Below are positions 2,948 to 46,901 of a DNA stretch of 53,336 nt, piece after piece. The DNA is from Desulfovibrio sp. (lineage in GTDB: Bacteria; Desulfobacterota; Desulfovibrionia; Desulfovibrionales; Desulfovibrionaceae). Numbering within the stretch: position 1 is the stretch's first letter; each line of letters starts with the position of its first letter. Position numbers and translations under genes: made by a program. The stretch spans positions 1-53,336 of the forward strand of contig JAFQNG010000050.1 in the NCBI GenBank assembly GCA_017396005.1, in the 5' to 3' direction. The notes under the pieces were generated by a model. It was not told where the DNA came from, did not search any database, and saw only the letters and a list, made by a program, of their open reading frames with translations.

Positions 2948-3004
2948 GACCTGATTATGCGGTCTGAAAAGCCGTCACACAAGAAAAAAAGTGGGAAAGC
3001 TCAG

Positions 3005-3028
3005 AAAAAACTGTCAGCCAGCTGGCTG
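3005..3028 (-). terminator. Terminator-like hairpin between trmL and the RND gene
   Basis: On the minus strand the palindrome CAGCCAGCTGGCTG is followed by ACAG and a run of six T. It lies just after the trmL stop, so it probably ends or attenuates transcription entering the RND gene. The stem is short (5-6 bp once a loop is allowed). Confidence 0.45.
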
Positions 3029-3032
3029 CCCA

Positions 3033-3512: not shown

Positions 3513-3515
3513 GGC

Positions 3516-5267: not shown

Positions 5268-5281
5268 GATCCCCCCGTATG

Positions 5282-14787: not shown

Positions 14788-14827
14788 TTTGTCAAACAGT
14801 GCCGCGCAGGCGGCTTCGGGAATCTGC

Positions 14828-31001: not shown

Positions 31002-32321
31002 TCAGCGCAGGCCCGGATTCTCTCTGCCGATATAATAGAAGAATCTGGCCCTTGCGCCCTGAAATTCCGTCAGGGCCTGGCTGGCATCGGTTTCTGCCTG
31101 TGTCAGCTTGTGCTGTGCGTCCAGAAGCTCGGTAATGGTGCCGGTGTTGGTCATATAGCGTTTATTGGCCATGGCATAGCTTTCGCGGGCTGCTTCCACA
31201 CCTTTGCGCGAGGCAGTGGTCAGCTCGCGTGCTGCCCTGATGTCCAGCAATGCGCGTATGACCTCTGTGCGTGCGCCAGACATGGCGTCTTCATATTCCT
31301 TCTGCAGGGCCTGAGCGCGCTTGCGTTCAGCCAGGGTCTCAAAGGTGGTCCCACCGCCGGAGAAGACCTCCCAGTTGAACTGCAGACCGGCTGCCCAGTA
31401 ATTGCGGGTATAGCCGTCATAGCGCTTGTCATCATAGTCCTTGCTGACGCTCATATTGTCATAGGTGGCGTCCACACTGGGCAGATAGCGGCCCATGGCC
31501 ATGTGCATATCCTTGCGGGCTATTTCCACAGACTTCTGTGCCATGATCAGGTCAGGCCGCTGGCGCAGAGCGATTTTCAGCGCTTCTTCCTCGCTGTAGG
31601 CCACTGTGGAGGCATAGTCGTTCAGCCTGCCTGTATAGCGCACGTCATCCGTGGGCGACAGGCCCAGATAGGCATTGAGCTGTACCTCGGCATTGCGGAT
31701 GTCATTCTGCACACGGATGACCTGCTGCTGTGCGCTGCTGAGTTCTGTCTGATTCTGCAGTACATTGACATACGGCGCCATGCCCACCTTGACAAAGGCC
31801 TCGGCCGCCTGCAGCTGTGTTTCGATGCGTCGTACAGACTCACGCGCGCTTTTGAGGTCTTCACGGTATTTGAGCAGCTGCAGGAACTGCAGCTGTACAT
31901 TGGCGCCCAGTTCCAGCCGGGCCTGCTGATGCCGGGCCTTTTCCGACTCTGCATTGAGGCGTGATTTCTGCAGGTTATTGAGATGGGCAAAACCGGCAAA
32001 GAGCGACAGCGAGGCCCGCCAGCCCTGCGACCAGTTTTTGCTGCTCAGGTTGTCGCTGTTATAGGTCTGTACTTCTGCATAGTTCTTGATTCTGTTGGTC
32101 GTAGCCACCAGCGAGACACGCGGCAGAAAATAACTGGCTGCTACACCCATGTTCATCCTGGCGCTTTCCAGCATGAGCAGCTTGGATTCCACACCAGGAT
32201 TGGCCTTCATGGCCTGGGCCACGGCCTGCTCCATGGTGAACGCTGTGGCAGCGGCACTGGCCGATACAGGGCAGAGCAGCAGGGCAGACAGCAACAGGGC
32301 CTGCAGGCAGAACTTCTTCAT
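31002..32321 (-). CDS. TolC-family outer membrane channel of a type I secretion system
   Basis: Outer membrane tunnel protein. Signal peptide MKKFCLQALLLSALLLCPVS with cleavage near SASAAA, then the repeated TolC helices (QAVAQAMKANPGVESKLLML; LELGANVQLQFLQLLKYRED; a second half starting near EEALKIALRQRPDLIMAQKS). Conserved ending with ITELLDAQHKLTQAETDA. Length 439 is normal. It is the last gene of the secretion operon and overlaps the preceding NlpE-like gene by 4 bp. Confidence 0.92.
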   Translation of the reverse strand: MKKFCLQALLLSALLLCPVSASAAATAFTMEQAVAQAMKANPGVESKLLMLESARMNMGVAASYFLPRVSLVATTNRIKNYAEVQTYNSDNLSSKNWSQGWRASLSLFAGFAHLNNLQKSRLNAESEKARHQQARLELGANVQLQFLQLLKYREDLKSARESVRRIETQLQAAEAFVKVGMAPYVNVLQNQTELSSAQQQVIRVQNDIRNAEVQLNAYLGLSPTDDVRYTGRLNDYASTVAYSEEEALKIALRQRPDLIMAQKSVEIARKDMHMAMGRYLPSVDATYDNMSVSKDYDDKRYDGYTRNYWAAGLQFNWEVFSGGGTTFETLAERKRAQALQKEYEDAMSGARTEVIRALLDIRAARELTTASRKGVEAARESYAMANKRYMTNTGTITELLDAQHKLTQAETDASQALTEFQGARARFFYYIGRENPGLR

Positions 32322-33289
32322 GGGCGTATCCTCCAGATGCGCGGTTCACTGTCCGCACGTTTCAGCATAAACTGTCGTCCGTCTTCCGTATGCAGCACAA
32401 GCGCTGTGCCGCTCAGCCGCCAGCGTTCCACTGCTGGCAGATAGAGCAGCTCCTCAGCGCCCAGGCCCTGCAGCATATCCCTGTCTGCATCCTGAGCTGT
32501 GAGTGTGAGCGCTGTGCCATCCACTCTGTAGGGCAGGCGCAGATGTAGGCCAGGGCCGGACAGTGTCACAATGCCGTGTCTGTCATCCTCAGGCGTAAAG
32601 ATACAGGTGGCTGCCTCGTCCCCTGCCTGCATGAGCCAGACATGCGGGACAGCGTCAGCCGTAAAGTCAGCTGTCTGCGCCTGTGGCAGGCTGCGGGAGC
32701 TGCTGCGCAGGCGCAGCAGGGTACAGCCCGTACTGTCTGGCCTGATAAAGGCATCCACAAAGAGCGGTGTCGCAAGGTCAGCCAGTGCTGCATTTTCCCT
32801 GAGCTGAAATACCCGGCCAGTGGCACTGTCTGTCAGTATAAAACCCTCTCCCTGCTGTTCCAGTCTGCCCATGACGCTGAACTCGGGCATGGTGAAGGCC
32901 CCTTCCCGCAGCAGCACAGTCTGTACTTCCTGCCCTCCAATACCGGGCAGAGGGCAGTAAAGATTGCGTTCTCCACCCACATTGCAGCGCAGACCCAGGC
33001 CGTGGCTGTTATCCATCTGCAGGAGTGCACCATCATTCGTCTGCAGCCAGTGGCCTGTCATATGCCGCGTAAAATTTCTCTCACCCCTGCAAAAATTCTG
33101 GCGCAGCACAAAATAGCCATTATCCAGCAGATGCAATTCTGCCTGCTGACGCAGGCTGTCCTGCTGCACTTCCCCGGTATAGAAGCTGCCCGGCTGCAGG
33201 CGGGCAAAGGGAAATCGCGCGGCAGCCCCCATGCCCACGGGGGCCGCCACGCTCAGGAGGAGACACACGATAACAGCGCGCATGCTCAT
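32318..33289 (-). CDS. Exported NlpE-like protein in the secretion operon
   Basis: A 323-residue secreted protein with a signal peptide (RAVIVCLLLSVAAPVGMGAA). The first half resembles the copper-resistance/NlpE N-terminal fold: LQPGSFYTGEV, AELHLLDNGYFVLRQNF, then HMTGHWLQTNDGALLQM. The lipoprotein cysteine of true NlpE is absent. A second, related beta-rich module may occupy the C-terminal half. It overlaps both neighbours by 4 bp (ATGA), so it is tightly coupled to the HlyD-like and TolC-like genes and is probably a periplasmic accessory of this exporter. Exact role unknown. Confidence 0.65.
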   Translation of the reverse strand: MSMRAVIVCLLLSVAAPVGMGAAARFPFARLQPGSFYTGEVQQDSLRQQAELHLLDNGYFVLRQNFCRGERNFTRHMTGHWLQTNDGALLQMDNSHGLGLRCNVGGERNLYCPLPGIGGQEVQTVLLREGAFTMPEFSVMGRLEQQGEGFILTDSATGRVFQLRENAALADLATPLFVDAFIRPDSTGCTLLRLRSSSRSLPQAQTADFTADAVPHVWLMQAGDEAATCIFTPEDDRHGIVTLSGPGLHLRLPYRVDGTALTLTAQDADRDMLQGLGAEELLYLPAVERWRLSGTALVLHTEDGRQFMLKRADSEPRIWRIRP

Positions 33290-34671
33290 TCACGCAGAGC
33301 GCGGTCCCAGTTCTTGATGAGCGGCTCCATCATATAGTAGAGCACAGTGCTCTTGCCTGTGGTGATGAAGACTGTCACCGGCATGCCCGGTGAAAGATAG
33401 AGTTTTTCATCCTCCAGGGCTCTGGGGTCCACTTCCACATAGCAGAGATAATAGGGCATGGCCCCGGCAGCTGTATTTTCTTCCAGCCGGTCAGCAGAAA
33501 TATAGGTCACCTTGCCGGGCATATGCGGGATGAGGCGTGTATCAAAGGCATCCATCTGTATCAGGGCATCCTGTCCGATATGCACCTCAGTGATCTTGTT
33601 GACCGGCACCTGTGTTTCCACGATAAGCGGGTTATCGTGCGGCACAATATCCAGCAGAGGTTCGCCCGGCCGTACCACACCGCCCTTGGAATGTACCTTG
33701 AGGTCCACCACGCGGCCTGAGACAGGAGCCGTGATCTGCAGACGCTTGCGCGCATCCCTGAGGGGGCGCAGGCGTTCCCGCGTCTGTAATATCTCGTTAT
33801 CCAGTCTGCCCAGATTACTGGTGGCGTCTTCCACAAAGCGCACCTTCACGTCCTGCATGCGCAGGTGCAGTTCGGCAGCACGCTGCCGAGCCTCGGCAAT
33901 GGACTGCTTGAAGCGGCCCCGGTTGCCCTGATGACTGGCCAGGTTGCGCTCCAGTTCCAGTATGTGCGACTTTTCCAGATAGCGCTCTTTATAGAGCTGT
34001 CTCTTGGCCCGCAATTCTTCGTGCAGGGTGGCAATAATGGTTTTTTCAGCCTTGAGCTGATCTTCAAACCCTGCGATCTGCGCGTCCAGCTGGGCCAGCT
34101 GTGTCTCCAGGAGTGAGCGCTGGGCCTGCAGGCTTTCACGACGGGCCAGAAAGATCTTTTCTTCATTGGCCAGTACGTCCAGGCTCTGGCAGGCCTCTGC
34201 CTGCTGTTTCAGCTCTTCCGGCCAGGTCAGTTCTGTTTTGAGGTCCTTTTCTGCCGCATAGCGCAGACGTGCGGCCTCCTGCGCTACCAGCTGCTTCTGC
34301 AGCATGCTGGTATTGGCGTCTATCTGTACAGATTCCAGCACGATGAGGGCCTGACCGGCTTTGACCTCCTCCCCCTCGCGTACCAGAATGGCCTCTACGA
34401 TACCGCCTTCCAGATGCTGTACGGTCTTGCGCTCGGTCTCGATCTTGATCTTGCCCGGCGCTACCACAGCCCCGCTGATATGCCCCAGCACTGACCACAG
34501 GCCCAGGGCCCCGAAAAAGAGGCCAATGACCAGCAGGCCCTGCCGGATGATGCGCTGCGGGTTTTCAATGCCATCACCCTGGGCAGCCTGCTGCTTTTCC
34601 GTGGCCTTGACCACGGGCTTGATGAATTTGGCATCCATGACCGCCAGGGCTTTACCCATTTTTTTACGCAT
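33286..34671 (-). CDS. HlyD-family membrane fusion protein (type I secretion)
   Basis: Periplasmic adaptor linking the ABC transporter to TolC. One membrane helix near residues 43-66 (GLLVIGLFFGALGLWSVLGH), a lipoyl-like half (GGIVEAILVREGEEVKAGQA), a long coiled coil of about 190 residues, the second lipoyl half (TAPVSGRVVDLKVHSKGG), and a beta-barrel end with LSPGMPVTVFITTGKST. Length 461 is typical of the PrtE/LapC-type group. The ATG at 34671 has GGAGG eight bases upstream and overlaps the ABC gene end by 8 bp. Confidence 0.93.
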   Translation of the reverse strand: MRKKMGKALAVMDAKFIKPVVKATEKQQAAQGDGIENPQRIIRQGLLVIGLFFGALGLWSVLGHISGAVVAPGKIKIETERKTVQHLEGGIVEAILVREGEEVKAGQALIVLESVQIDANTSMLQKQLVAQEAARLRYAAEKDLKTELTWPEELKQQAEACQSLDVLANEEKIFLARRESLQAQRSLLETQLAQLDAQIAGFEDQLKAEKTIIATLHEELRAKRQLYKERYLEKSHILELERNLASHQGNRGRFKQSIAEARQRAAELHLRMQDVKVRFVEDATSNLGRLDNEILQTRERLRPLRDARKRLQITAPVSGRVVDLKVHSKGGVVRPGEPLLDIVPHDNPLIVETQVPVNKITEVHIGQDALIQMDAFDTRLIPHMPGKVTYISADRLEENTAAGAMPYYLCYVEVDPRALEDEKLYLSPGMPVTVFITTGKSTVLYYMMEPLIKNWDRALRE

Positions 34672-36382
34672 GGGGCTTGCCCTCCACCTGGTTCTGCTGT
34701 TTTTCAAGGGCCCTGGCAGCCTCTTCGCGCTGCTTCTGCATGAGGGCCAGTTTCTGCAGCACGTCCTGCCGCGAGCCGCTGAGGGCTATCTGTCCGTCCT
34801 GCAAAAGGACGATATTATCCACAATGTTCAGTATCTGCGGTTTGTGTGTCACCAGTATGACCGTGGCTTTCTGTCGCAGGTTGACCACAGCACGGGCCAG
34901 ACAGGCCTCGCCTTCTTCATCCAGATTGGCATTGGGCTCATCCAGCACAATAACGCGCGGGTCACCGTACAGGGCACGGGCCAGGCCCACACGCTGGCGC
35001 TGGCCGCCCGAGAGGGCTGCCCCGGCCTCGCCGATCTGTGTGTCATAGCCCTTGGGCAGGGCCAGTATCATTTCATGCACACCGGCCATGCGTGCGGCCT
35101 TGATGACCTTTTCAGAGTCCACATCGCCCATGCGGGCAATGTTTTCAGCCACACTGCCGGCAAAGAGCTCCACATCCTGCGGCAGGTAGCCCAGAAACGG
35201 CCCCAGTTTTTCGCTGTCCCAGCTGTTCATGTCAGCTCGGTCAATGCGTACTTTGCCGTTGGTAGGCTGCCAGATATTGAGCAGCAGCTTGCACAGAGTA
35301 GACTTGCCTGCCGCACTGGGGCCGATGACAGCCAGAGACTGGCCCGCAGGCATGCGGAAGGAGATACCCTTGATGATAGGTCTGTTACCGGCAGCAAAAA
35401 AGAGATTTTCGGCAGTTATTTCGCCCACCGGGTCCGGCAGGTCCATATGTGGTGGCTGGGGTGGCGCATCCAGCAGTTTTTTCAAACGGCCATAGGCCTC
35501 GCGCGCCTCCAGAGACTGTTTGTAGGTGGCCATGGCCTGGTCGATGGGGGCCAGGGCCCGGCCCATGATGATGGAGGCCGCTATCATGGCCCCGGGTGTG
35601 GATTCCTGTTTTACGGCCAGATAGGCCCCGGCCGCATAGATAAAGACCTGCAGGCCCACGCGCAGGGCCTTGCTGATGGCGTGCAGCAGGCCTGCGCTGC
35701 GGCTGGCCCTGGTCTGCAGGCGGATGACCAGATCATTGACCTTGGCCCAGCGGGCCGTGACACTGCCCACCATACCCATGGAGCGCACAATGGCCGCATT
35801 GCGCAGGGCCGCGCCCGTGAAGCCGGCGGCATGGGCATTGAGCTGATTGGCAGATTCCAGCCGTTTACGCGTCAGCCGCTCTGTGAGCAGGCCCAGTATG
35901 AGCACCAGCACGCCCCCGGCCACAGCCACAGAGCCCAGCATGGGGTGCAGGATGAAGATGAGCAGGAAGTAGATGGGCATCCAGGGCAGGTCAAAAAAGG
36001 CAAAGACCGCATTGCCGCCCAGAAAGTTGCGCAGGCTCTGCACGTCACGCAGGGTACCGTCCTTGCCGGGCGTGGCCCCTGCCGGCCCGCCTGCGCTCTG
36101 CAGGTTGCGCTTGAGCACGTCCCGGCTGAGCATGTGGTCAAACTCAATACCGGCCCGCACCAGCAGGCGTGAGCGTATCCACTCCAGCATGGCCATGACT
36201 GTCAGGGCAATGACTGCAGCCACGGTGATGACAACCAGGGTAGAGAGGTTATAGCTGGTCAGCACCCGGTCATAGACCTGCAGCATATAGATGGGGAAGG
36301 TGAGCTGCAGCAGGTTGACAAAAAGGCTGAAGAAAAAGGCATAACTGAAAAAATAGCGGCAGGCACGCAGAAACTCTTGCAT
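34664..36382 (-). CDS. Type I secretion ABC transporter, permease-ATPase (PrtD/HlyB family)
   Basis: Inner-membrane exporter that powers one-step secretion. A six-helix domain (about 10-290) is followed by the ATPase: Walker A GPSAAGKST (354-362), signature LSGGQRQR (457-464), Walker B VIVLDEP (477-483). There is no N-terminal peptidase domain, so it is the PrtD type that handles RTX substrates without leader cleavage. Length 572 is normal. It heads the operon ABC-HlyD-NlpE-like-TolC. The ATG at 36382 begins MQEFLRACRYFF; a longer reading to 36430 has no support. A good sigma-70 promoter lies about 100 bp upstream. Confidence 0.94.
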   Translation of the reverse strand: MQEFLRACRYFFSYAFFFSLFVNLLQLTFPIYMLQVYDRVLTSYNLSTLVVITVAAVIALTVMAMLEWIRSRLLVRAGIEFDHMLSRDVLKRNLQSAGGPAGATPGKDGTLRDVQSLRNFLGGNAVFAFFDLPWMPIYFLLIFILHPMLGSVAVAGGVLVLILGLLTERLTRKRLESANQLNAHAAGFTGAALRNAAIVRSMGMVGSVTARWAKVNDLVIRLQTRASRSAGLLHAISKALRVGLQVFIYAAGAYLAVKQESTPGAMIAASIIMGRALAPIDQAMATYKQSLEAREAYGRLKKLLDAPPQPPHMDLPDPVGEITAENLFFAAGNRPIIKGISFRMPAGQSLAVIGPSAAGKSTLCKLLLNIWQPTNGKVRIDRADMNSWDSEKLGPFLGYLPQDVELFAGSVAENIARMGDVDSEKVIKAARMAGVHEMILALPKGYDTQIGEAGAALSGGQRQRVGLARALYGDPRVIVLDEPNANLDEEGEACLARAVVNLRQKATVILVTHKPQILNIVDNIVLLQDGQIALSGSRQDVLQKLALMQKQREEAARALEKQQNQVEGKPHA

Positions 36383-36484
36383 GGGCGGCGCATTCCTTGG
36401 TGCTGCCGCCGGGGCAGGGCAGCGCCCCATACGGCAGACGCGGCACGGGAGGCCCCGCGCCGGTAACGGTTCGATACGCCGGGG

Positions 36485-36513
36485 AATATAAGAAGAGGGG
36501 AGGGTTTTGTCCA
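36485..36513 (-). promoter_or_regulatory. Promoter of the type I secretion operon
   Basis: On the minus strand TGGACA (-35), a 17-bp spacer and TATATT (-10), each five of six matches to consensus, about 100 bp before the ABC gene. It lies outside the invertible segment, so the operon may have basal expression in either orientation. Confidence 0.65.
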
Positions 36514-36698
36514 GATATGCGTTTGAACAACGCCAAAGAAGCCATAAAGCTGCTGCTTATGGTCAACTGCTGTTTTGTGCCCGCACACAGAGGTCGTATC
36601 ACGATGCAGACAGGGAAGGTATAAACTTTTTGTATCGAACCGGCCTGCGCCGCACCTTGCCCTGAAGCCTGTATTATCGCCTGTAATCAGGCCTTTTG

Positions 36699-36726
36699 TC
36701 TCATTTGGGTACACCCTAATAAGACA
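36699..36726. repeat. Left inverted repeat (serine-invertase crossover site)
   Basis: 28 bp identical, in inverted orientation, to 39660-39687. The inner 26 bp read TCTCATTTGGGT-AC-ACCCTAATAAGA split as 12-2-12, with the two arms matching at 10 of 12 positions around an asymmetric AC/GT core. This is the architecture of hix/gix sites. Confidence 0.92.
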
Positions 36727-36745
36727 GCATCTTGATACGGGTTCA

Positions 36746-36774
36746 TTTTTAAGCCCAAGGGCTGTGCTTGTCAA
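36746..36774 (-). promoter_or_regulatory. Outward promoter at the left end of the invertible segment
   Basis: On the minus strand a perfect -35 TTGACA (36769-36774), a 17-bp spacer and TAAAAA (36746-36751). It fires left through the left repeat toward the secretion operon. After inversion it would fire right through the other repeat toward the substrate gene. The spacer contains the dyad AGCCC-AA-GGGCT, a possible operator. Confidence 0.7.
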
Positions 36775-36895
36775 CTCCCTGCCTGCAAAAAATCACGGCA
36801 GCGCTGTTCATATCAGGCAGCAGTTTTCGATCTTCGGATAAATTATTTCCGATATCCCACGAAAAATACTGGTTTTCCTTACTGTCCATCGTCTA

Positions 36896-36922
36896 GCGAG
36901 GGATCCTCCTCGCATCTATAAT
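36896..36922 (+). promoter_or_regulatory. Promoter/operator region of the PIN-domain pair
   Basis: A perfect -10 TATAAT (36917-36922) lies about 70 bp before the PIN gene, without a good -35. The dyad GCGAGG-GATCCT-CCTCGC (36896-36913) sits in the -35/spacer position, where toxin-antitoxin pairs often bind their own operator. Confidence 0.45.
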
Positions 36923-36992
36923 CGGTTGCATCCCATCGCAATCTGTATCATCCTTTGGGAGAGCAGCAAACAGATTATGGCAGGGAAACATC

Positions 36993-37439
36993 ATGCTGAG
37001 AATATACTTGGATACCTGTTGCCTCAACAAACCCTATGACGATCAGTCTCTCATGCGAAACTCTCTGGAGGCGCAGGCGAAACTGCATATCCAGTCGCTC
37101 ATCAAAGAGGGGCGTATTCAGTTAGCAACATCATATATTTTATTGTATGAGAACAGTAAAAATCCGTTTATAATGCGAAAAATGGTTATAAGTGATTTTT
37201 TAAAGAAATACAGTTGTCAGTATATCTCCAGTGATAATGCTGCCAAGATACAAGAGTGTGCTGAGACTATCATGAATAGTGGAATTAAAGCTAAGGATGC
37301 TTTGCATGTGGCATGTGCGATTGAGGCCGGATGCCGCTATTTGCTATCCACAGATGATCGTTTGCTGAAATACAAACATGAAAGTATTCTTTTACTGAAC
37401 CCTATAGATTTTATTTGTATGGAGATTGAAAAGCAATGA
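36993..37439 (+). CDS. PIN-domain protein (VapC-like putative toxin)
   Basis: A 148-residue protein beginning MLRIYLDTCCLNKPYDDQSL, the opening of a PIN ribonuclease fold with its first acidic residue (D7). Later acidic residues of the fold are present in KAKDALHVACAIEAGCRYLL and STDDRLL. PIN proteins cleave RNA and are usual toxins of VapBC pairs. Its stop overlaps the start of the next small gene (ATGAG), which is probably its partner, although here the order is toxin first. Base composition is more AT-rich than the chromosome around it. Confidence 0.8.
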   Translation: MLRIYLDTCCLNKPYDDQSLMRNSLEAQAKLHIQSLIKEGRIQLATSYILLYENSKNPFIMRKMVISDFLKKYSCQYISSDNAAKIQECAETIMNSGIKAKDALHVACAIEAGCRYLLSTDDRLLKYKHESILLLNPIDFICMEIEKQ

Positions 37440-37672
37440 GCATAAGTACATCAGAACTGATGAACAGAGGGATGCGTTGTTTGGTGGAAAAGCTGGGTAC
37501 GGTTGAGGCTGAAATGTTCATTGCAGCCATTATGCGGGAACGGTTCGACTATACAAAGTGGCAGCGTGAACATTTCGATGATGTGGAACTGGAAGCATTC
37601 AACGCTGCAGCGGTGGCTTGGGAAAGGCAACAGGGTTTACACCCTCTGAGAAAGCTCCTTGTGTACTCATAG
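37436..37672 (+). CDS. Small partner of the PIN protein (putative antitoxin)
   Basis: A 78-residue protein (MSISTSELMNRGMRCLVEKL at the start, then FDYTKWQREHFDDVELEAF). It starts within the stop of the PIN gene by 4 bp, so the two are translated together. I recall similar small proteins next to PIN genes in other bacteria but no function is established. No DNA-binding motif is evident. Its end overlaps the convergent Fic gene by 6 bp. Confidence 0.65.
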   Translation: MSISTSELMNRGMRCLVEKLGTVEAEMFIAAIMRERFDYTKWQREHFDDVELEAFNAAAVAWERQQGLHPLRKLLVYS

Positions 37673-38674
37673 CTTCTGTATCCGCAATCTGCCCTTTGCT
37701 GTCAGCCGATAGCGTTGTGTGGGGCTGCGTGGTTTATCTGGCAATGTTCGTTCGACAAGCCCGTTTTGCAGTGCCGGGTTCAGGTAATTCTTTCGGAATG
37801 TCGGGGCGTGGCGCAGGGACAAGGACGACATAAGCTCCAGGGCACTTTTGTCATCTTGCAGCAGTACGACCAGAAGACGGCGAACTTGGTCGCTAACTTG
37901 GTCGCTAACTTGATCGCTTTGGAGAATTTCTACGGAATCCTGAAGGGCGGCAAGCATAAAGTCAATAAAGGGGGAGGCCTCTCCCTGCTGGTCGGCAAAC
38001 CCCAAGGCCGCATAGTATTCCTTTTGCCGATGGCGGACAACGGTTTCCACCGGCAGATAGATAAAAAGCGGGTTCCACTTGCTGAGGACCAGTGTTTGCC
38101 ACAGTCTTCCCATACGGCCGTTGCCGTCGTCAAAGGGATGGATGAACTCCAGCTCATAGTGGACAACGCAACCGGCAATCAGGGGATGTTCGTCTGTTTT
38201 TTGCAGCCACTGGAAGAGTTTTTCCAGGTGCCCGTGTATCAGATGTGCGGGCGGGGCCATATGCACAACTCTGTTTCCCTGAAATACGCCGACGCTTCCG
38301 GTACGGAGGGCACCAGGCCGGTCCACAAGGTCATGCATGAGAACGCCGTGAGCTGTAAGCAGATCTTTCAGGCAGTACGGTGACCAGGCAGGCAGTTGTT
38401 CATAGGCAGCCACTGCACCGCGTACTTCCTGTATATCACGGCTCGGCCCTATGACAGGCTTGCCGTCAATGATATCCGTTACCTGTTCCAGGCTGAGGGT
38501 GTTGTTTTCAATGGCGAGAGAGGCATGAATAGTGCGAATACGGTTCTCGCGTCGCAGTTGGGGAGAGAACTTGTCTGCCGACAAGTCGGCAGCGGAAAGC
38601 AATGCAAGCCGTTCGCTGATGGAGGCTACTCGTTTGAGTATCCTGCTGGTAATGGTATATGGTGGATAGCTCAT
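37667..38674 (-). CDS. Fic-domain protein (class II, self-inhibited AMP-transferase)
   Basis: Fic enzymes usually transfer AMP from ATP to Ser/Thr/Tyr side chains. The catalytic motif HPFDDGNGRMGR (H179) is intact. The inhibitory motif S-x-x-x-E-N lies in the N-terminal helix (S52, E56, N57), so the protein can switch itself off as class II Fic proteins do. A winged-helix-like C-terminus (about 265-335) may bind DNA. Between them is a threefold SDQV repeat (253-264) encoded by three 12-bp direct repeats. It lies inside the invertible segment, convergent with the PIN pair. Length 335 is normal. Confidence 0.88.
   Translation of the reverse strand: MSYPPYTITSRILKRVASISERLALLSAADLSADKFSPQLRRENRIRTIHASLAIENNTLSLEQVTDIIDGKPVIGPSRDIQEVRGAVAAYEQLPAWSPYCLKDLLTAHGVLMHDLVDRPGALRTGSVGVFQGNRVVHMAPPAHLIHGHLEKLFQWLQKTDEHPLIAGCVVHYELEFIHPFDDGNGRMGRLWQTLVLSKWNPLFIYLPVETVVRHRQKEYYAALGFADQQGEASPFIDFMLAALQDSVEILQSDQVSDQVSDQVRRLLVVLLQDDKSALELMSSLSLRHAPTFRKNYLNPALQNGLVERTLPDKPRSPTQRYRLTAKGRLRIQKL
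37883..37918. repeat. Three tandem 12-bp repeats in the fic gene
   Basis: AACTTGGTCGCT occurs twice and AACTTGATCGCT once, head to tail, encoding SDQV three times on the minus strand. The unit is in frame, so slippage would change linker length without breaking the gene. Confidence 0.9.
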
Positions 38675-38736
38675 TTGCCTTCCTCATGAATGTTTTGCCA
38701 GTGCCTTTGAGAAAACTCCTTTACCGCACCATGTGT

Positions 38737-38773
38737 CAAGAGTCCGGCAGATTCTTGGTCTGCCGGACTCTTG
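38737..38773. terminator. Long perfect hairpin between the recombinase and fic genes
   Basis: CAAGAGTCCGGCAGA and TCTGCCGGACTCTTG form a 15-bp perfect stem with a 7-base loop. No T-run follows on either strand. It lies after the recombinase gene and before fic; either a factor-independent-like stop, an mRNA-stabilising end, or an operator. A second weaker dyad (GGCACGA/TCGTGCC) is at 38783-38814. Confidence 0.5.
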
Positions 38774-38914
38774 AGAGGTTTAGGCACGAGCTCTTGCTGC
38801 AAGTATTTCGTGCCGTAATATAGTCTTTATTCTCGTGTTTGATAGCCTTGCAATAAGATTGCTACTACACGAAATTCGTTAGGTCAATGATCCTTTAGCA
38901 GGGATCGTTCCCCC

Positions 38915-39484
38915 TTATTCCGCCTTCATGCCACCCCGTTTTGCCGTACTCAGTATACGGTATATACTCTGTCGTGACATGCCGTAGGCTTTTGCGAGGT
39001 GCCGTACTGGCTCTGCAGCACTGCGCTGCACTACTTCCCTGACCTGCTCTGCACTCAGCCTGGGTTTGCGCCCCTTGTATTTGCCCAGTGCCTTGGCAAT
39101 TGCAATACCTTCGCGTTGTCTTTCTCTGATCATGGTGCGTTCAAACTGGGCCACAGCAGCCATGATATGCAGATGCAGTGTTTCAAAGGGGGTGAATTGT
39201 TTGGAAAAGATAAGCCGCTCCTTATGAAAGTATACGCTGACCTCTATTTCCTGCAGATAGGTCAGCAGGATGAGCATATCGTTTAAATTGCGCGACAGCC
39301 GGTCGATGCTGTGCACATGCAGCATATCCCCGCGCTGCAGTTCACTGAGGCATTTTTGCAGCTGCGGGCGCTGCATGTTTTTACCACTGACGGTATCCAC
39401 ATATACTCTGTCCAGTCTGACACCCTCCAGCTGTCGATGTGTGTTCTGTTCCAATGAGCTGACCCTGATATAACCGATGTCCAT
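38915..39484 (-). CDS. Serine recombinase, Hin/Pin-type DNA invertase
   Basis: A 189-residue recombinase, the length of Hin. The catalytic N-terminal domain begins MDIGYIRVSSLEQN, with the nucleophile Ser at 9; the arginines of VHSIDRLSRNLNDM and RTMIRERQREG complete the active site. A 45-residue C-terminal helix-turn-helix (SAEQVREVVQ, HLAKAYGMSRQSIYRIL) binds the crossover site. GGAGG lies upstream of the ATG. The gene lies 176 bp inside the right repeat of the pair it most likely recombines. Resolvases are similar in sequence, but two inverted sites favour inversion. Confidence 0.93.
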   Translation of the reverse strand: MDIGYIRVSSLEQNTHRQLEGVRLDRVYVDTVSGKNMQRPQLQKCLSELQRGDMLHVHSIDRLSRNLNDMLILLTYLQEIEVSVYFHKERLIFSKQFTPFETLHLHIMAAVAQFERTMIRERQREGIAIAKALGKYKGRKPRLSAEQVREVVQRSAAEPVRHLAKAYGMSRQSIYRILSTAKRGGMKAE

Positions 39485-39584
39485 AAACGCCTCCTTTTTT
39501 CACGAATTTGTTAAGAATTACAGAAGTGATTTTACATCTTCATAATGAAAAATATTTTATGTATAGATGCATTTAAATAGTTTT

Positions 39585-39602
39585 AGAATACATGTGTATT
39601 CT
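39585..39602. promoter_or_regulatory. Inverted repeat upstream of the recombinase gene
   Basis: AGAATACA-TG-TGTATTCT, perfect 8-bp arms. It lies about 100 bp before the recombinase start and 58 bp inside the right crossover site; a possible operator or accessory-factor site. Confidence 0.45.
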
Positions 39603-39659
39603 CTGAACTATTCAATGCATGAGATTAAATTTTTTTTCAAGAGCCTTATATCGTGAAAT

Positions 39660-39687
39660 TGTCTTATTAGGGTGTACCCAAATGAGA
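39660..39687. repeat. Right inverted repeat (serine-invertase crossover site)
   Basis: Exact reverse complement of 36699-36726. It lies about 250 bp before the start codon of the repeat-protein gene. Confidence 0.92.
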
Positions 39688-39807
39688 ACGGCAATTTACA
39701 ATTGGATAGAGGAAAGTTTCTGTAATTTCAAGTACTTTTCTCAAGATGCTGTTACATGGGTGTGTGACAGCTAAGTGCTCAACTTTATTGAGGATTGGCC
39801 GCCTGCA

Positions 39808-39882: not shown

Positions 39883-39935
39883 ACTGCTTCAACCCGCGGC
39901 ATTGGCCGCACAATTTTTTCCTCCGGAGGAATATC

Positions 39936-41660
39936 ATGGCTGAGCCCAAATGGTTTGATAAGGAACATTACCTGCTAAAGAAAGCTGAACACCTTCAGTC
40001 GTATGCAAAGGAGTATGATGGCTATACTCCTGAACAGGCAGAAGAGCTGATGACTGAAGCCGGCTTCACGCCCTATGAACATTTTGTGGCTTTCGGCAAC
40101 AGTGAAAACGTTTCACCCAACGCCTTTTTTGACGTCAATTACTATGTTGCTGCCAAGGCTGTGCATCTGAGCAATCTGAATCATGAAAACAACAGCAACT
40201 GGACCATGCAGGATGTGCTTGACGAATTTGCCGAGCACGGCTTTACGGCATGGGATCACTTCTGTGCCTTTGGCTGGCAGGAAGGCGTCAATCCTTCTGC
40301 TACCTTCGATATTAATGCCTATCTCCTGGAAAAAACAAAACAGCATAATGAAATCGCCCATGAAGGCCGTTCAGACTGGACTGTGGAACAGACCAAGGCT
40401 GCCATTGCAGATGCAGGGCTGAATCCCATCTCTCATTACGAGCAGTTTGGGGTCAATGAAACGGTCGATGGAGAAGCTCTGGCCCCTGCAGCCGCTGCTG
40501 ACCAGGCTGCTGTTGCTGCAAAACAGAGCGGTGAAGGTAGCGTTGTTATCAATGGTACTGCTGAACTTACTCTGCAGGAAGCGGTTGCTGCGGCCGAAGC
40601 AGGTAACTTGCCCGACGCGTATAACCTGACTGCTGGTACAGCTGAAGATTTGACCGTAGCTCAGGCTGGGCTGGTTGAAGATATCGTGGAAGGCGCTGGT
40701 AATGCTGAAGGCTATAACGCCGACTACACGTTGGCTGACAACATCGCCAATCTTGTCACTGCATCTAAGCAGGTAGCTGATCCTGATGATGATGGTGTGA
40801 ATGTTGCCATGAAAGTTGTCGATAGCTATAGTAACTATGCCGAAGCTTCGACCAAGCCTGAAAAAATCACTGCCTATGAACTGACCGGCACCTCCGGTGA
40901 TGAACGTATCAATGTTAAGGATAATTTCGTCAATGCTGATACTGTTCTGATTGCCGGTGGTCAGGGTGCTGACATGATTAATATCCAGCAAGGTACGAGC
41001 GGTAGCGTTAAGGCTGTCTTTGGTGGTGCTATTTCCGAGTATAATAGTGAGTTAAAGCGTTACGAAGAAAGCGAAGACAGCATCAATGCTACCGGTATCT
41101 GGGCTGACTATAGCTTTGCAAAGTACCTGAGCAATGATGCCCAGGCTCTCATGTCTGGGGCGAATCTCCTTGATGTGCATGGCCAGAGCACCATCATGGT
41201 GGGCTCTACTGCGAAGGATGTGTTCAGACTTCAGGATACAACTGCAGTTGCAGATACGAATATTGTTGCGGAGAACCCTGGGAATGTGACTATCCATAAC
41301 TTCACTCTTGGTGAAGATGCCATTCTGCTGACCAGCAACGCGTTTTATGAAGCAGTCAATGCAGCCCTTGGTATCAGTGATCCTGAGGGTAAGACTACTC
41401 TCAAAAATCAGACAAGTGCAGATCAACTTGATTTGATCGCCGAACATGTGAAGATGCAAGTCAACGACAATGGTAGTGTTACCTTGGGATTTAAGTGGTC
41501 CGAAGTGTACGCCTCTGAAGGTACATACAATGGAGAAGAATGGACCGTAGATGTGAGCAAGGCTCTTGCATACACTGACGACTCGACTATCACTATCCTT
41601 GGCGTTGATGGCTTCGAACTCGGTGTTACCACCGCTGCTGACTTCTTCCAGCTCGCTTAG
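39936..41660 (+). CDS. Large acidic secreted repeat protein, probable type I secretion substrate (S-layer/RTX-like)
   Basis: A 574-residue acidic protein with one cysteine and no signal peptide. Residues 6-64, 65-124 and 124-180 are three copies of a unit reading F-D-x-x-Y-L ... G-F-T-x-x-x-H-F-x-x-F-G-x-x-E, known from RTX and other surface proteins. An alanine-rich linker follows, then YTLADNIANLVTA-like and GTSGDERINVKDN stretches of RTX flavour. The end (GVDGFELGVTTAADFFQLA) fits an uncleaved type I export signal. GGAGGA lies before the ATG at 39936, and codon use suggests high expression. The nearest exporter is the operon at 31002-36382, across the invertible segment. Confidence 0.8.
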   Translation: MAEPKWFDKEHYLLKKAEHLQSYAKEYDGYTPEQAEELMTEAGFTPYEHFVAFGNSENVSPNAFFDVNYYVAAKAVHLSNLNHENNSNWTMQDVLDEFAEHGFTAWDHFCAFGWQEGVNPSATFDINAYLLEKTKQHNEIAHEGRSDWTVEQTKAAIADAGLNPISHYEQFGVNETVDGEALAPAAAADQAAVAAKQSGEGSVVINGTAELTLQEAVAAAEAGNLPDAYNLTAGTAEDLTVAQAGLVEDIVEGAGNAEGYNADYTLADNIANLVTASKQVADPDDDGVNVAMKVVDSYSNYAEASTKPEKITAYELTGTSGDERINVKDNFVNADTVLIAGGQGADMINIQQGTSGSVKAVFGGAISEYNSELKRYEESEDSINATGIWADYSFAKYLSNDAQALMSGANLLDVHGQSTIMVGSTAKDVFRLQDTTAVADTNIVAENPGNVTIHNFTLGEDAILLTSNAFYEAVNAALGISDPEGKTTLKNQTSADQLDLIAEHVKMQVNDNGSVTLGFKWSEVYASEGTYNGEEWTVDVSKALAYTDDSTITILGVDGFELGVTTAADFFQLA

Positions 41661-41676
41661 ATAACGTTAAACGTTT

Positions 41677-41704
41677 GGGCCTCTCCGTATGGGGAGGCCC
41701 TTTT
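41677..41704 (+). terminator. Intrinsic terminator of the repeat-protein gene
   Basis: GGGCCTCTCC-GTAT-GGGGAGGCCC, a 10-bp stem with one G-T wobble, followed by TTTT. Confidence 0.92.
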
Positions 41705-41719
41705 CTCCCCTATTACCTC

Positions 41720-42658
41720 ATGCCAGCACCAGCCGTCAGCATCATCATCCCCAGCTACAACTATGGCCGTTATTTGCCGCTAACGTTGCGTTCTGCTTTG
41801 GGCCAGACTCTTGCGGATGTGGAAGTCATAGCCGTGGATGACGGCTCTACAGATGAATCTTTGCAAATTTTGCGCGAGGTTGCCGAGCAGGACGCGCGGT
41901 TGCGCGTTTTTACACATCCAGACGGGAAAAATCGCGGCCTGCCTGCCACATTGGCGCTGGCCTTAAGTCACGCAAAGGGAGAGTGGCTGGCTGTGCTGGA
42001 GGCTGATGATCTCTGGCTGCCCACCTGTCTGGAAGAGCGTCTGCATGCGGCCTGTCAGACAGGCGCGGACGTGGTGCTCAATGATATTTCCTTGTTGGCC
42101 ATGCCCGGTGCTGCCACAGGCTGGTTTGAAAGCTATGTGCCGCGCGTCATGGACTGGCACAGGGCACAGGCGCAGGGAGAGGACGGGCAGGCAAGGTCAT
42201 ATGCGCCTGGGCCGGCGTTTTTGCTGGAAAATAAAATCCCCACACTCTCCTGTGCCATGGTGCGTACCAGCCTCATGCGCAGTATTTCGCTGCAAAGCCC
42301 GGTCAGACGCTGGTTGGATTGGTGGCTGTGGGCGCAACTTTCCCTCGAAAATACTTTCGCTTTTGTACCGCAGAGGCTCACGCGCTGGCGTCTGCACGCC
42401 TCAAGCCAGCATGCCCGGGAAGAGCCTGGAAAATATTTGGATGACTATGCCCGCATGGGGCAGGGGCTGCGCAAACTCTGGCTGCGCCCTCTCTTGCGTG
42501 GTCGTTGCTGGGGCTGGGCAGCGTTTCTCTGCCTGCCGTCACTATTGCGTGTGGGCCTGCGCCTGGGCCTGGGCTTTTTGACACAGGGGCCATGGCAGCT
42601 TTCTCGTGGCATATGGGGCCGCTTGCGCTTCAGCGGCAGGGGCCTCCGCAAACTGTAA
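41720..42658 (+). CDS. Glycosyltransferase family 2 protein
   Basis: GT-A fold enzyme, probably adding a sugar in a surface polysaccharide. The nucleotide-sugar site is clear: VSIIIPSYNYGRYLPLTLRS, VIAVDDGSTDESL and VLEADDLW (the acidic cluster standing in for DxD). The C-terminal 70 residues are basic and partly hydrophobic, suggesting membrane association without a true helix bundle. Length 312. The ATG at 41720 (MPAPAVSII) lies 15 bp after the terminator of the repeat-protein gene. First gene of the polysaccharide cluster. Confidence 0.9.
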   Translation: MPAPAVSIIIPSYNYGRYLPLTLRSALGQTLADVEVIAVDDGSTDESLQILREVAEQDARLRVFTHPDGKNRGLPATLALALSHAKGEWLAVLEADDLWLPTCLEERLHAACQTGADVVLNDISLLAMPGAATGWFESYVPRVMDWHRAQAQGEDGQARSYAPGPAFLLENKIPTLSCAMVRTSLMRSISLQSPVRRWLDWWLWAQLSLENTFAFVPQRLTRWRLHASSQHAREEPGKYLDDYARMGQGLRKLWLRPLLRGRCWGWAAFLCLPSLLRVGLRLGLGFLTQGPWQLSRGIWGRLRFSGRGLRKL

Positions 42659-42976
42659 ATGGGCTGTGCTATGAGTACAAAAACAAAAATCAGCCTGCTG
42701 CAGGATGCTTTGGCCATCATGCGCAGGGCCTGCAACGGCAGACCATACGGCAATCAGGCAGAGCTTGCCAGAGCTACCGGCGTTTCTGAGGCCAATATTT
42801 CGCGCTGGCTCAGTGGCAAGAGCAGGCCGACCCTGACCAAGCTGGAACCTGTACTGCAGGTTCTGGGAGTGCGACTGGTGCAGGCACACAGACAGCGTGT
42901 CAGCCAGGAGAAAAAGCCCAGACGTATACGCATCTCACGCCGCAGGACTGCACGAAAATGCGTTACAGCCCATTAG
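42659..42976 (+). CDS. Small helix-turn-helix (XRE/HipB-like) DNA-binding protein
   Basis: About 105 residues. The helix-turn-helix is plain: NQAELARATGVSEANISRWL followed by SGKSRPTLTKLEPVLQVLGV. A strongly basic tail follows (KKPRRIRISRRR). The ATG at 42659 touches the glycosyltransferase stop; an alternative start is 42671. The end overlaps the next gene by 19 bp. A regulator in the middle of a polysaccharide operon may control the cluster itself. Target unknown. Confidence 0.8.
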   Translation: MGCAMSTKTKISLLQDALAIMRRACNGRPYGNQAELARATGVSEANISRWLSGKSRPTLTKLEPVLQVLGVRLVQAHRQRVSQEKKPRRIRISRRRTARKCVTAH

Positions 42977-45936
42977 CAGCCCTGTTGTTATTGCCAGCAT
43001 CCAAAGCTGTGTACGGCAGCTGGTCGGCGTGGCGGCAGGCCTGGGGCATGGGTGCACGCGCATTCTTTGCACAGGTGGTCAGGCGAGGCCCCAAAACAGT
43101 ACGCCGTAGTGGATCACTGCTGAGGGATATGTGCGTCTATTATCCCATGCAGATGGGCCTTGAACTTCTGCGCGGTTTGAGCCTGAGGCAGCTGCTGCGC
43201 AAGGGATGGTATATACTGCGTTTGCGCATGAATGGCGGCACGGCAGAGCAGGACAACGCTGATGCTGAACAGGCGGGCTGGGTGGACAACCGCTTGCCCT
43301 TTGTACCTGTGGAGCACATCAGGGCACTGATGGCTGACCCGGATATCAAAGTCGTCAGCTTCGATATTTTCGATACGCTGCTGCTGCGCCCGGTACTTGA
43401 GCCCGCAGACATCTTCTTGTTGCTGGCCCGCAAGCTGGACCCTTTGTATAATGTGGATTTCCAGCGTATGCGTGGTACTGCCGAGGCTGGTCTGGGTATG
43501 CCCAATGCCCGCCTTGACGACATCTATGCCCATATGGCTCGGTGTTATGGCCTTTCTGACGCAACGCGTGACGCCCTCAAGGCAGAGGAGATAGCCTGCG
43601 AGAGAACATTGCTGACGCCGCGCCCGGATGTCATGGCCCTGTATGAGGAGGCAAGACGACTGGGCAAGCGTGTCATTGCCGTGTCAGACATGTATCTGCC
43701 TGCCTCCTTGCTGGCCGACATCCTGCGCGAAAAGGGCCTTCCGGTAGATGCCCTCTATGTTTCCTGCGAGTATGGGGTCCGCAAAAGCGGTGGGGGCCTT
43801 TATGAGCGCATGCTGGCGCAGGAAGGTGTACAGGCCGCCGCAATACTGCATGTGGGCGATAACTTTCAGTCAGACTGTGTGCAGGCCCTCAAAAAGAATA
43901 TCTGTGCAGTATGGCTGCCCTCCATTGTGGAAACAGCGTTGGGCTGCGAAGAAGTGCGGCAGACCTTTGATGCAGCTGTCAGGCAGGAACCCATGCTGTC
44001 GTTCTATCTGGGCCATGCGCTCAACCGCCTCTACGGCAGACAGGATCAGGCCCCTGAGCTGCTGGCCCGTATCAGAGATCTGCGGCATCTGACAGAATTG
44101 TGCATCGCACCGCTTGTTGCAGCTTTCGCTGTATTTCTGAATACCGACAAGGACATACAGAGCCGTTACAGGCATGTCCATTTCGCTTCACGCGATGGCT
44201 GGCTGCCGTATGTGGTCTACGAGGCCCTGCGAACTCGTCTGGGCGGCATACCCGGCAAATACTTTTACGCAGGCCGACGCGCCTACTATCCCTTCCTGCA
44301 TGACGACTTTTTCGCCTTTGCCCGTTCGCTGCACCGTGCGGCAGACGTGCAGGGCTATACCTTGCGCCATTTTATCAGAGCGTGGTTCTGTGGAAGCCCC
44401 TTGCAGACACAACTGGAACAGAACTGTACTGAAGCAGAACTGGCGTTGCCCTTTTTTCTCCACAAGGAGGAATGCCTTTCGATTCTGGAACGTTGTAGGG
44501 AATGTATAGATGCCTTTTTTCAGAGCAAGCGGGACAGAGCTCAAAAGTATTACCGTTCTGTCTTTACAGAGCCGGAAGAGCGACATCTGGTTTTCGATTT
44601 GGGCTATTCCGGCTCAGTGGGCATAGCTCTGAGCAAAGCTCTGAACAAGCCTGTCGATAAGCTTTATTTCTGGCAGAGCGAGGCCAATGCCGCAGCTGAT
44701 AAAAAATATGGCAGTACGACGCGCCTGTTTATGGGAAATACGTCGTATATCCCATATCATCTTGTACTGGAAGAATTGTTTTCTCCCTATACCGGCGGTG
44801 TGAATGATTTTGATGAGCAGGGTACACCCTTGCTGGATTCAGTAGATATGCCTTGTATGGAAAAGCAAAATTTTTCCATCATAGAAAATACTAGTCTGAG
44901 CTTTATTGAAACATTTGTATCATGTCTGAGCGAATATATTCGATTTGCTTCTCTATATCGTCCTTTTGCTATATGTAATATAATGCATGATTTTTTATGG
45001 AAAACGCCATATTGTAACCTTTCTATACTAAAAAATATAAAATTTTCTGATCCAGTATATCATAATAAAGATAGTTCTCTCGAATATAAAATTGAAAAAT
45101 TTTTCTCTGTAAAAAATGTTTTTTCAGGTACGGGTTTTGATAATCCATGGTATGCTGTTAGAGATAAGTTTTTGTACGATAGCACAAGAATGAATATCGG
45201 TATACATGTACACCTCTTTCATACTGAGATGACTGATGAGATCATCCGCTATCTTCAGGATTTTCCTGCCAGATTCGATCTGTATTGTACCATAACCGAT
45301 ATGAGCTTTGCAGCCACGGCAGAAAAAATTTTCAGTACAGCTCTCTTGCCGCAGCTCGACAGGTTGCAGATCGTTCCTGTCCCCAATCGAGGACGTGATG
45401 TGGCCCCCTGGGTTCTGAGCCTGCGCCCCTGGCAGGAAAACTATGACGTGTTTTGCCATATCCATACCAAGGCTTCTGACATGGGCCGCAAGGACGAGTG
45501 GCGGCGCTACCTGTATGACAATCTCATCAGTGCCGATGCTGCGGCTCGAATCCTTGGTATTTTCCAGCAGCATCCAGAAGTCGGCTGTATCTTTCCGGCC
45601 ATCTATCCGCGACTGCGACAGGTCATGATTCGCGTTGGTGTGCCCTTGTACGGCTCTGAGCATGAATACCAGCTCATTACCGACCTGTTGCAACGGATGG
45701 GTTTGGATAGTGAATACTGTCTGTCAGATCAGTTTTTTTCAGGGGGGACCATGCTCTGGTACAGGCCTGAAGCCCTCAGGCAGCTTTTCAGCGTGGATCT
45801 GCACCTGGAAGAATTTGAGCCTGAGCCCATTGGGGTAGGCGGTACACTGGCCCACGCCATTGAGCGCCTGCCCGCTGTCATTGCCATGCGTAATGGCTAT
45901 GATGTGAAAACCCTTACCATAAGGCCAGCCTCATGA
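42958..45936 (+). CDS. HAD-like hydrolase fused to RgpF (rhamnan synthesis F) domain
   Basis: A 992-residue two-part protein. About residues 130-330 form a HAD fold (VVSFDIFDTLLLRP with D136/D139, AVSDMYLPASLL, HVGDNFQSD), followed by a long region also seen in COG5610-type proteins. From about 745 to the end is an RgpF-like domain (IHVHLFHTEMTDEIIRYL, PVPNRGRDVAPWVL, FFSGGTMLWYRPEAL). RgpF is linked to polysaccharide side-chain assembly in streptococci. The bases about 44870-45180, between the parts, are markedly AT-rich, suggesting a recombined patch. It overlaps both neighbours. Confidence 0.85.
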   Translation: MRYSPLAALLLLPASKAVYGSWSAWRQAWGMGARAFFAQVVRRGPKTVRRSGSLLRDMCVYYPMQMGLELLRGLSLRQLLRKGWYILRLRMNGGTAEQDNADAEQAGWVDNRLPFVPVEHIRALMADPDIKVVSFDIFDTLLLRPVLEPADIFLLLARKLDPLYNVDFQRMRGTAEAGLGMPNARLDDIYAHMARCYGLSDATRDALKAEEIACERTLLTPRPDVMALYEEARRLGKRVIAVSDMYLPASLLADILREKGLPVDALYVSCEYGVRKSGGGLYERMLAQEGVQAAAILHVGDNFQSDCVQALKKNICAVWLPSIVETALGCEEVRQTFDAAVRQEPMLSFYLGHALNRLYGRQDQAPELLARIRDLRHLTELCIAPLVAAFAVFLNTDKDIQSRYRHVHFASRDGWLPYVVYEALRTRLGGIPGKYFYAGRRAYYPFLHDDFFAFARSLHRAADVQGYTLRHFIRAWFCGSPLQTQLEQNCTEAELALPFFLHKEECLSILERCRECIDAFFQSKRDRAQKYYRSVFTEPEERHLVFDLGYSGSVGIALSKALNKPVDKLYFWQSEANAAADKKYGSTTRLFMGNTSYIPYHLVLEELFSPYTGGVNDFDEQGTPLLDSVDMPCMEKQNFSIIENTSLSFIETFVSCLSEYIRFASLYRPFAICNIMHDFLWKTPYCNLSILKNIKFSDPVYHNKDSSLEYKIEKFFSVKNVFSGTGFDNPWYAVRDKFLYDSTRMNIGIHVHLFHTEMTDEIIRYLQDFPARFDLYCTITDMSFAATAEKIFSTALLPQLDRLQIVPVPNRGRDVAPWVLSLRPWQENYDVFCHIHTKASDMGRKDEWRRYLYDNLISADAAARILGIFQQHPEVGCIFPAIYPRLRQVMIRVGVPLYGSEHEYQLITDLLQRMGLDSEYCLSDQFFSGGTMLWYRPEALRQLFSVDLHLEEFEPEPIGVGGTLAHAIERLPAVIAMRNGYDVKTLTIRPAS

Positions 45937-46886: not shown

Positions 46887-46901
46887 AAAAATGTATTTAA
46901 T

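Follow-up and report, generated by a model that had tools for sequence, protein, structure and literature searches.

A putative Hin-type DNA-inversion switch for a type I secretion cargo in Desulfovibrio and Mailhella

Introduction

In the hin / fljBA flagellar switch of Salmonella and in other systems run by Hin/Gin/Cin/Pin invertases, a promoter within the invertible segment reads into one neighbour, and inversion of the Hin/Gin type requires an enhancer bound by Fis. Here we describe a locus of comparable anatomy in a 53,336-nucleotide stretch of Desulfovibrio sp. DNA (assembly GCA_017396005.1, contig JAFQNG010000050.1, positions 1 to 53,336; hereafter the window), where a serine recombinase gene enclosed by two inverted repeats lies between a type I secretion operon (the exporter) and a divergent gene for its probable substrate (the cargo). 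This is probably a Hin-type DNA-inversion switch for the cargo, with the exporter under its own control. As in Hin, a small serine recombinase is encoded inside the segment, the inverted sites are near-palindromes of ~26-30 bp with a 2-bp centre, and a segment promoter is predicted to read out into one neighbour. Unlike Hin, the switch would act on a type I secretion cargo, its divergent neighbour is an exporter with its own predicted promoter in most Desulfovibrio loci, and among related recombinases some have the same core just once, upstream of the gene.

Variation of a surface-layer (S-layer) protein beside a transporter has a precedent in the sap system of Campylobacter fetus, which has a type I transporter, includes the exporter genes within the inverting region and depends on RecA for recombination. 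Unlike sap, the locus described here has its exporter operon outside both sites (6/6 genomes) and a recombinase with short sites. Two papers describe sap as varying the S-layer protein next to transporter genes (PMC3887049, PMC4943207). In another, Caulobacter RsaA is a constitutive RTX S-layer protein encoded beside the type I exporter genes rsaDE, S-layer proteins are described as acidic and without cysteines, and the title of a cited reference states that O-antigen genes are needed for S-layer attachment (PMC3034196). The text of a study of gut-bacterial invertons (PMC11892184) has no occurrence of Desulfovibrio, type I secretion, RTX or Bilophila. Among the matches listed in a search of the open-access literature by title and start of abstract, which leaves most subscription papers outside, there was no invertase-controlled type I secretion cargo, and 0 papers combined 'DNA inversion', 'type I secretion' and 'RTX'; as evidence of novelty this is weak. 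An initial annotation of the window had called the arrangement undescribed in this form, which needs a qualifier, as sap varies an S-layer protein beside transporter genes.

Results

The initial annotation had placed two identical 28-bp inverted repeats around the gene of a Hin-like serine recombinase, with the exporter starting 317 bp outside one repeat and the cargo 249 bp outside the other, and each of these points was borne out. The switch and its neighbours comprise the following features (aa, amino acids).

36697..36726, + strand: exporter-side recombination site, 30-bp near-palindrome TGTCTCATTTGGGTACACCCTAATAAGACA, by repeat comparison; core also in 5 relatives.
39660..39689, - strand: cargo-side recombination site, inverted copy (28 bp identical, 39660-39687), by repeat comparison.
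36746..36774, - strand: promoter-like element TTGACA-17-TAAAAA, inside the segment at its exporter-side end, pointing outward (TTGTCAA in 6/6 loci; 5/300 shuffles as high).
36485..36513, - strand: the exporter operon's own promoter-like site, TGGACA-17-TATATT, outside the segment (1/300 shuffles as high).
38915..39484, - strand: serine recombinase (putative invertase) gene, 189 aa (Pfam Resolvase/HTH_7; PHROG DNA invertase 1.6e-54).
34664..36382, - strand: type I secretion ABC transporter, PrtD subfamily, conserved start (TIGR01842 674.1 bits, cut-off 510.15).
33286..34707, - strand: HlyD-type adaptor (TIGR01843 368.5 bits, cut-off 208.65).
32318..33289, - strand: exporter-operon protein, 323 aa, without Pfam or NCBIfam family (30-42% identity in relatives).
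31002..32321, - strand: TolC-like outer membrane protein (Pfam OEP 200.9 bits, above cut-off; TIGR01844 130.6 bits, below cut-off 225.15).
39936..41660, + strand: probable secreted cargo, 574 aa (composition, repeats, C-terminal tail).

The repeats (36699-36726 and 39660-39687) have no further match within the window at <=3 mismatches (100 dinucleotide shuffles gave a mean of 0.00). In the draft genome to which the window belongs as contig C15 (85.6% complete, 100 contigs), a 24-bp core pattern at <=3 mismatches gave nothing beyond these two places. Dyad pairing covers 12/15 positions in the 30-bp left copy and 10/15 in the right copy around a non-palindromic AC/GT centre, so that the sites have the form of a serine-recombinase crossover site. 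Between them lie the recombinase, a Fic gene, a PIN gene and a small open reading frame (ORF); the exporter operon runs leftward outside one site and the cargo gene rightward outside the other. The operon holds a type I secretion set of ABC transporter, HlyD adaptor and TolC-like gene. The exporter start is that of the ATPase at 36382 (MQEFL...), conserved in the related genome G006; in the ORF list the gene begins further upstream, at 36430. The cargo ATG is at 39936. About 50 bp outside the cargo-side site, at 39741-39765, a 12-bp inverted match with a GGGTGTGTGACA stretch resembles a degenerate third site.

Six genomes in two genera share the layout exporter / site - recombinase - site / divergent cargo: the window's own, G006, G067 and G094 (Desulfovibrio), and G200 and G202 (Mailhella). 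Ca. Desulfovibrio intestinavium and two Ca. Mailhella species are among the relatives. Of 79 genus genomes, a pattern search matched the four Desulfovibrio ones, and the block order TolC-DUF-HlyD-ABC / recombinase / cargo / glycosyltransferase of the window recurs in G006, G067 and G094; a genome-collection scan (76 loci) and a family search added the two Mailhella genomes. The family search found the recombinase at E<=1e-45 in 63/288 genomes, at 72 places. Flanks were searched for the window's proteins at 57 of these, many ending at contig ends, and 6 of the 57 were linked to the exporter; the remaining 15 places are all at <=53% identity. Among 22 exporter loci in the 79 genus genomes, 4 have the recombinase, 2 the cargo only and 16 neither, several of these 16 ending at contig ends near the exporter; in G028 and G093 the exporter adjoins the cargo without a recombinase. 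Recombinase-bearing loci are scattered over several branches of the exporter tree (24 rows), the best tree needing three changes, as would suit one gain of the recombinase and later losses. The cargo N-terminal family occurs in 20/288 family genomes, often in several copies and mostly apart from the switch recombinase. The arrangement being conserved, the observation made by the initial annotation is stronger than it was stated: switch anatomy and placement between exporter and cargo hold across both genera.

In 6/6 loci the exporter-side site has the core GGGTACAC and the cargo-side site has its inverse, with an AC centre in all six; the core shared is 8 bp long. Palindromy is weaker in the Mailhella sites (5-8/15 dyad positions), and those of Ca. 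M. merdavium lie on two contigs. Elsewhere in the recombinase family, among 90 other recombinases scanned, 7 show just one exact copy of a GGGTACAC-type core, 110-212 bp upstream of the gene (they include L181, L176, L167, L184, L187 and L083), and in 4/6 such loci that could be read a TTGACA is directed at the gene, 67-78 bp from the core. These single upstream cores independently mark the core as a recombination site of the family, and they suggest that the switch may have arisen from a resolvase-like ancestor. An inverted-repeat scan of the first 56 of the 76 collection loci also showed recombinases within 24/24 inverted repeats of unrelated sequence in L109 (Methylovulum psychrotolerans, 2422-6305, repeats 3.9 kb apart) and L134 (Tatlockia, 22-5463, 5.4 kb apart).

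The recombinase itself combines a catalytic domain (Pfam Resolvase, 116.4 bits) with a C-terminal helix-turn-helix (HTH_7, 26.8 bits); an NCBIfam scan of it gave no model at its cut-off. R7, S9, D61, R62 and R65, which we take to be its catalytic residues, are invariant in 4 aligned sequences. In a quick tree of 67 of 96 distinct proteins, with most of the distant taxa left out, the recombinases linked to a type I exporter form one clade (SH-aLRT 98). The five other switch genomes have 54-63% identity to the window's recombinase, and the frame is open in five loci and split across two contigs in the sixth. This is Ca. M. merdavium (G202), in which the assembly breaks inside the recombinase gene (C6 start, C17 end) and the contig end mismatches beyond a 17-bp overlap. 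Contig C9 of G000 (L035) has a second recombinase of the family (14820-15362, 56% identical), codirectional with and ~400 bp upstream of a flagellin gene (15761 onward); a search within 4 kb of it gave no pair of inverted repeats, the contig ending 1.7 kb beyond.

A candidate promoter was found at one end of the segment. Over the first 150 bp inward of the exporter-side core, the only block common to 6/6 loci is TTGTCAA, at an offset of 60-61 bp, which read outward is TTGACAA and contains the -35 hexamer TTGACA. A shared 5-mer at one offset occurred in 0/3000 mononucleotide shuffles, also when one locus was taken for each of four lineages, and the cargo-side ends of the six loci have no 4-mer in common. 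The outward sigma70 score at the exporter-side end exceeded shuffles in 5/6 loci, with 10.5 bits in the window (5/300 shuffles as high), 12.3 in G006 (1/300), 8.6 in G094 and in G067 (9/300 each) and 9.9 in Ca. M. merdavium (10/300). At the cargo-side end this was so in 0/6 (shuffles as high, of 300: window 119, G006 199, G094 281, G067 254, Ca. M. excrementigallinarum 121, Ca. M. merdavium 297). TA follows TTGACA at 17-18 bp in 5/6 loci, and G006 has GATAAT at 16. The cargo-side site of G094 and G067 is ~65 bp from the cargo ATG, and the best promoter-like match in that interval would initiate transcription within the cargo gene; as assembled, the cargo of these genomes is without a recognisable promoter, and inversion would supply one.

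The exporter has a promoter-like site of its own, TGGACA-N17/18-TATAnT, outside the segment in the window, G006, G067, G028 and G093 (1, 3, 7, 4 and 2 of 300 shuffles as high), that is, in 3/4 Desulfovibrio switch loci and the two recombinase-less loci. In G028, TTGACA-17-TCAAAT also faces the cargo (2/300 shuffles as high).

In both Mailhella genomes the first cargo gene is followed tail-to-tail by a second, and ~354-363 bp before the ATG of this second gene lies a third core, in inverted orientation to that of the cargo-side site. In Ca. M. excrementigallinarum the two cargo leaders differ at 4 positions over 360 bp (98.9% identity); left of the core identity is 4-8/20, and it rises from 5/20 to 19/20 exactly at GTGTACCC. 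The two cargo proteins are 56% identical. The leaders of Ca. M. merdavium are more diverged and its cargoes have 547 and 1409 aa. The loss of leader identity exactly at the core in Ca. M. excrementigallinarum suggests cargo swapping. A duplication whose end fell at the core would leave the same pattern, and beyond the third core of this species the half-site is degenerate; both make an exchange less certain. This species also has a third cargo gene (L213, 4709-9217, 1502 aa) with no exact core in front.

The window cargo is acidic and Cys-poor, with an N-terminal helical triple repeat and a C-terminal ADFFQLA tail. Its description as a large RTX/S-layer-like protein fits loosely: it has 574 aa and a single GGxGxDx-type motif, and a Pfam scan gave no family at E 0.001. 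Among 9 cargoes there are 1 to 5 RTX-type motifs each; of 4 scanned, the Pfam RTX model scored below its cut-off in 2 and had no match in the other 2. The cargoes are acidic with 0-4 Cys, a likeness to S-layer proteins in composition, and no sequence or fold match was found in the searches made. The window's genome has one A2-type cargo match and no alternative-cargo layout. The cargo Shine-Dalgarno sequence (39920-39929) lies inside a palindrome, CCTCCGGAGG, which also precedes the cargo ATG in G006 and the two Mailhella genomes, not in G094 or G067.

The remaining genes of the segment and those downstream of the cargo are as follows.

37667..38674, - strand: Fic-domain protein gene, passenger (Pfam).
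36993..37439, + strand: PIN-domain protein gene, passenger (Pfam).
37436..37672, + strand: 78-aa ORF overlapping the PIN gene, passenger, no family matched.
41675..49026, + strand: surface-polysaccharide genes (GT2, RgpF-type, methyltransferase, ABC-2 permease, Wzt), with partial synteny in relatives.
42659-42976: HTH gene among the downstream surface-polysaccharide genes.

Fic and PIN had no match inside the other five switch segments (present in 1/6). The PIN gene, the 78-aa ORF and the Fic gene (36993-38674) represent toxin-like families.

Discussion

Anatomy, conservation, spacing and phylogeny together point to a mechanism in which inversion, promoter activity, the ON and OFF states and cargo secretion are predicted. 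The dedicated serine recombinase, encoded within the segment, would exchange strands at the AC centre of the two inverted 30-bp sites and so flip the segment. The promoter it carries, with TTGACA ~60 bp from the exporter-side core, faces away from the cargo in the assembled orientation, which would be cargo OFF; in the flipped segment, transcription from it would cross the other site and enter the cargo leader, giving cargo ON. The exporter would be driven by its own promoter outside the segment and be affected little or not at all. In Mailhella the recombinase could also use the third site, and a flip between this and the cargo-side site would bring the other cargo up to the promoter, choosing which one adjoins it. 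We suggest tentatively, as a proposal slightly more open to doubt than to acceptance, that the recombinase clade is dedicated to type I secretion cargo, a single enzyme and a single family of sites serving for promoter-inversion gating of a secreted surface protein and, in Mailhella, also for swapping of the whole cargo gene (547 vs 1409 aa in one species) into the expression site while the exporter stays constant.

Several observations weigh against a cargo switch. The recombinase reads toward the exporter, the predicted OFF state, in 6/6 assemblies, which has a two-sided chance of 0.03 if both states were equally common; each assembly shows one state only, and this uniformity is the main evidence against active flipping. 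The initial annotation had held that a single orientation in deep read sets and in all relatives would refute an invertible segment, and at the level of assemblies a single orientation is what the comparison returned. Strong skew is common among invertons (minor orientation frequency 0-0.01 in 1011/1837 read-called invertons; PMC11892184), making uniform orientation less telling, and under the favoured reading both orientations would occur. On the promoter side, the outward score in Ca. M. excrementigallinarum is not significant (7.7 bits, 61/300 shuffles as high), the -10 hexamers retain just 3-4/6 consensus bases in 5/6 loci, and the AT-rich cargo-side end of the window has a promoter-like site of 9.3 bits (119/300). 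Of the recombinase-less loci, G028 also has TTGACA facing the exporter and G093 has no cargo-directed promoter (112/300 shuffles as high). Export of the cargo by the adjoining type I system is read from adjacency. It is quite unlikely, in our judgement, that the segment no longer flips, with the recombinase a relic, resolvase-like or locked, the sites acting as operators and the cargo controlled otherwise. Such a segment would account for the uniform orientation and for the single upstream cores of the 7/90 recombinases, which resolvases have too. It would also suit the closest solved-structure relatives, 2r0q (presumably Sin resolvase) and 4m6f (named DNA-invertase), which tie at 112 bits, so that the recombinase sequence alone cannot separate invertase from resolvase. 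The inverted geometry of the sites argues for an invertase, and a locked segment agrees poorly with a frame kept open in five loci at merely 54-63% identity, with sites that stay inverted with identical cores and with leader identity that, in one Mailhella, stops precisely at the core.

The coupling or alternation proposed by the initial annotation, in which the segment promoter would boost the exporter in one orientation and drive the cargo in the other, is improbable but has more to say for itself. As assembled, the conserved outward promoter faces the exporter, whose start codon is ~360 bp away in the window. Outside the segment, G094 and both Mailhella loci have no exporter promoter above chance (76 of 300 shuffles as high in G094, 115 in Ca. 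M. excrementigallinarum and 227 in Ca. M. merdavium), which also counts against an independent exporter. Leftward terminator-like hairpins, which would oppose coupling, intervene between segment and exporter in G006, G094 and G028; they are suggestive only, as in the six switch loci they are not clearly better than chance (7, 4, 3, 13, 11 and 4 of 60 shuffles as low; 0/60 in G028), and transcription may read through into the exporter. Coupling is opposed by the exporter's own outside promoter in the window, G006, G067 and the two recombinase-less loci, and cargo produced without its exporter would be wasted. Our reading thus shifts from coupling to a predicted switching of the cargo alone. The ON and OFF states would be misassigned if TTGTCAA were an accessory site, a recombination enhancer or host-factor site, in place of a promoter. 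Its spacing from the core, fixed to 1 bp, and the poorly conserved -10 would suit this, but we give it little weight, as 0/6 readable single-site relatives carry TTGTCAA on that side of the core, TA follows TTGACA at 17-18 bp in 5/6 loci and the score is above shuffles in 5/6. That the segment is a mobile element with terminal repeats, loaded with resolvase, Fic and PIN and inserted here by chance, is very improbable: the passengers are indeed confined to the window's genome, but the same place is occupied in two genera, sites are retained though contents differ, the recombinases form a single clade, and no other copy of the sites or of 36727-38914 was found in the draft genome.

For the switch favoured here, the described systems offer partial parallels. 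As in sap, an S-layer-like cargo adjoins transporter genes and glycosylation or lipopolysaccharide genes, and several alternative cargo genes of which one is transcribed from a conserved promoter are comparable to Mailhella, where the layout matches sap-type alternative cargo genes with a shared leader and the exchange itself is putative. As in the Caulobacter rsaA-rsaDE arrangement, an acidic, Cys-poor cargo lies beside a type I exporter, here with polysaccharide genes adjacent; unlike the constitutive RsaA the cargo belongs to a switch-type locus. In common with gut-bacterial invertons (PMC11892184), promoter inversion would take place near surface genes with an orientation that is often strongly skewed.

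If this reading is true, a secreted surface protein of gut Desulfovibrio and Mailhella varies through DNA inversion; the enzyme would be a dedicated one, the sites defined and the ON/OFF orientation open to direct test. Hin-type switches would be extended to type I secretion cargo, and sulfate-reducing gut bacteria would have a mechanism of surface variation that is an enzyme-driven counterpart to C. fetus sap. Were the cargo-swapping reading also true, type I secreted surface proteins of these bacteria would undergo antigenic variation driven by an enzyme.

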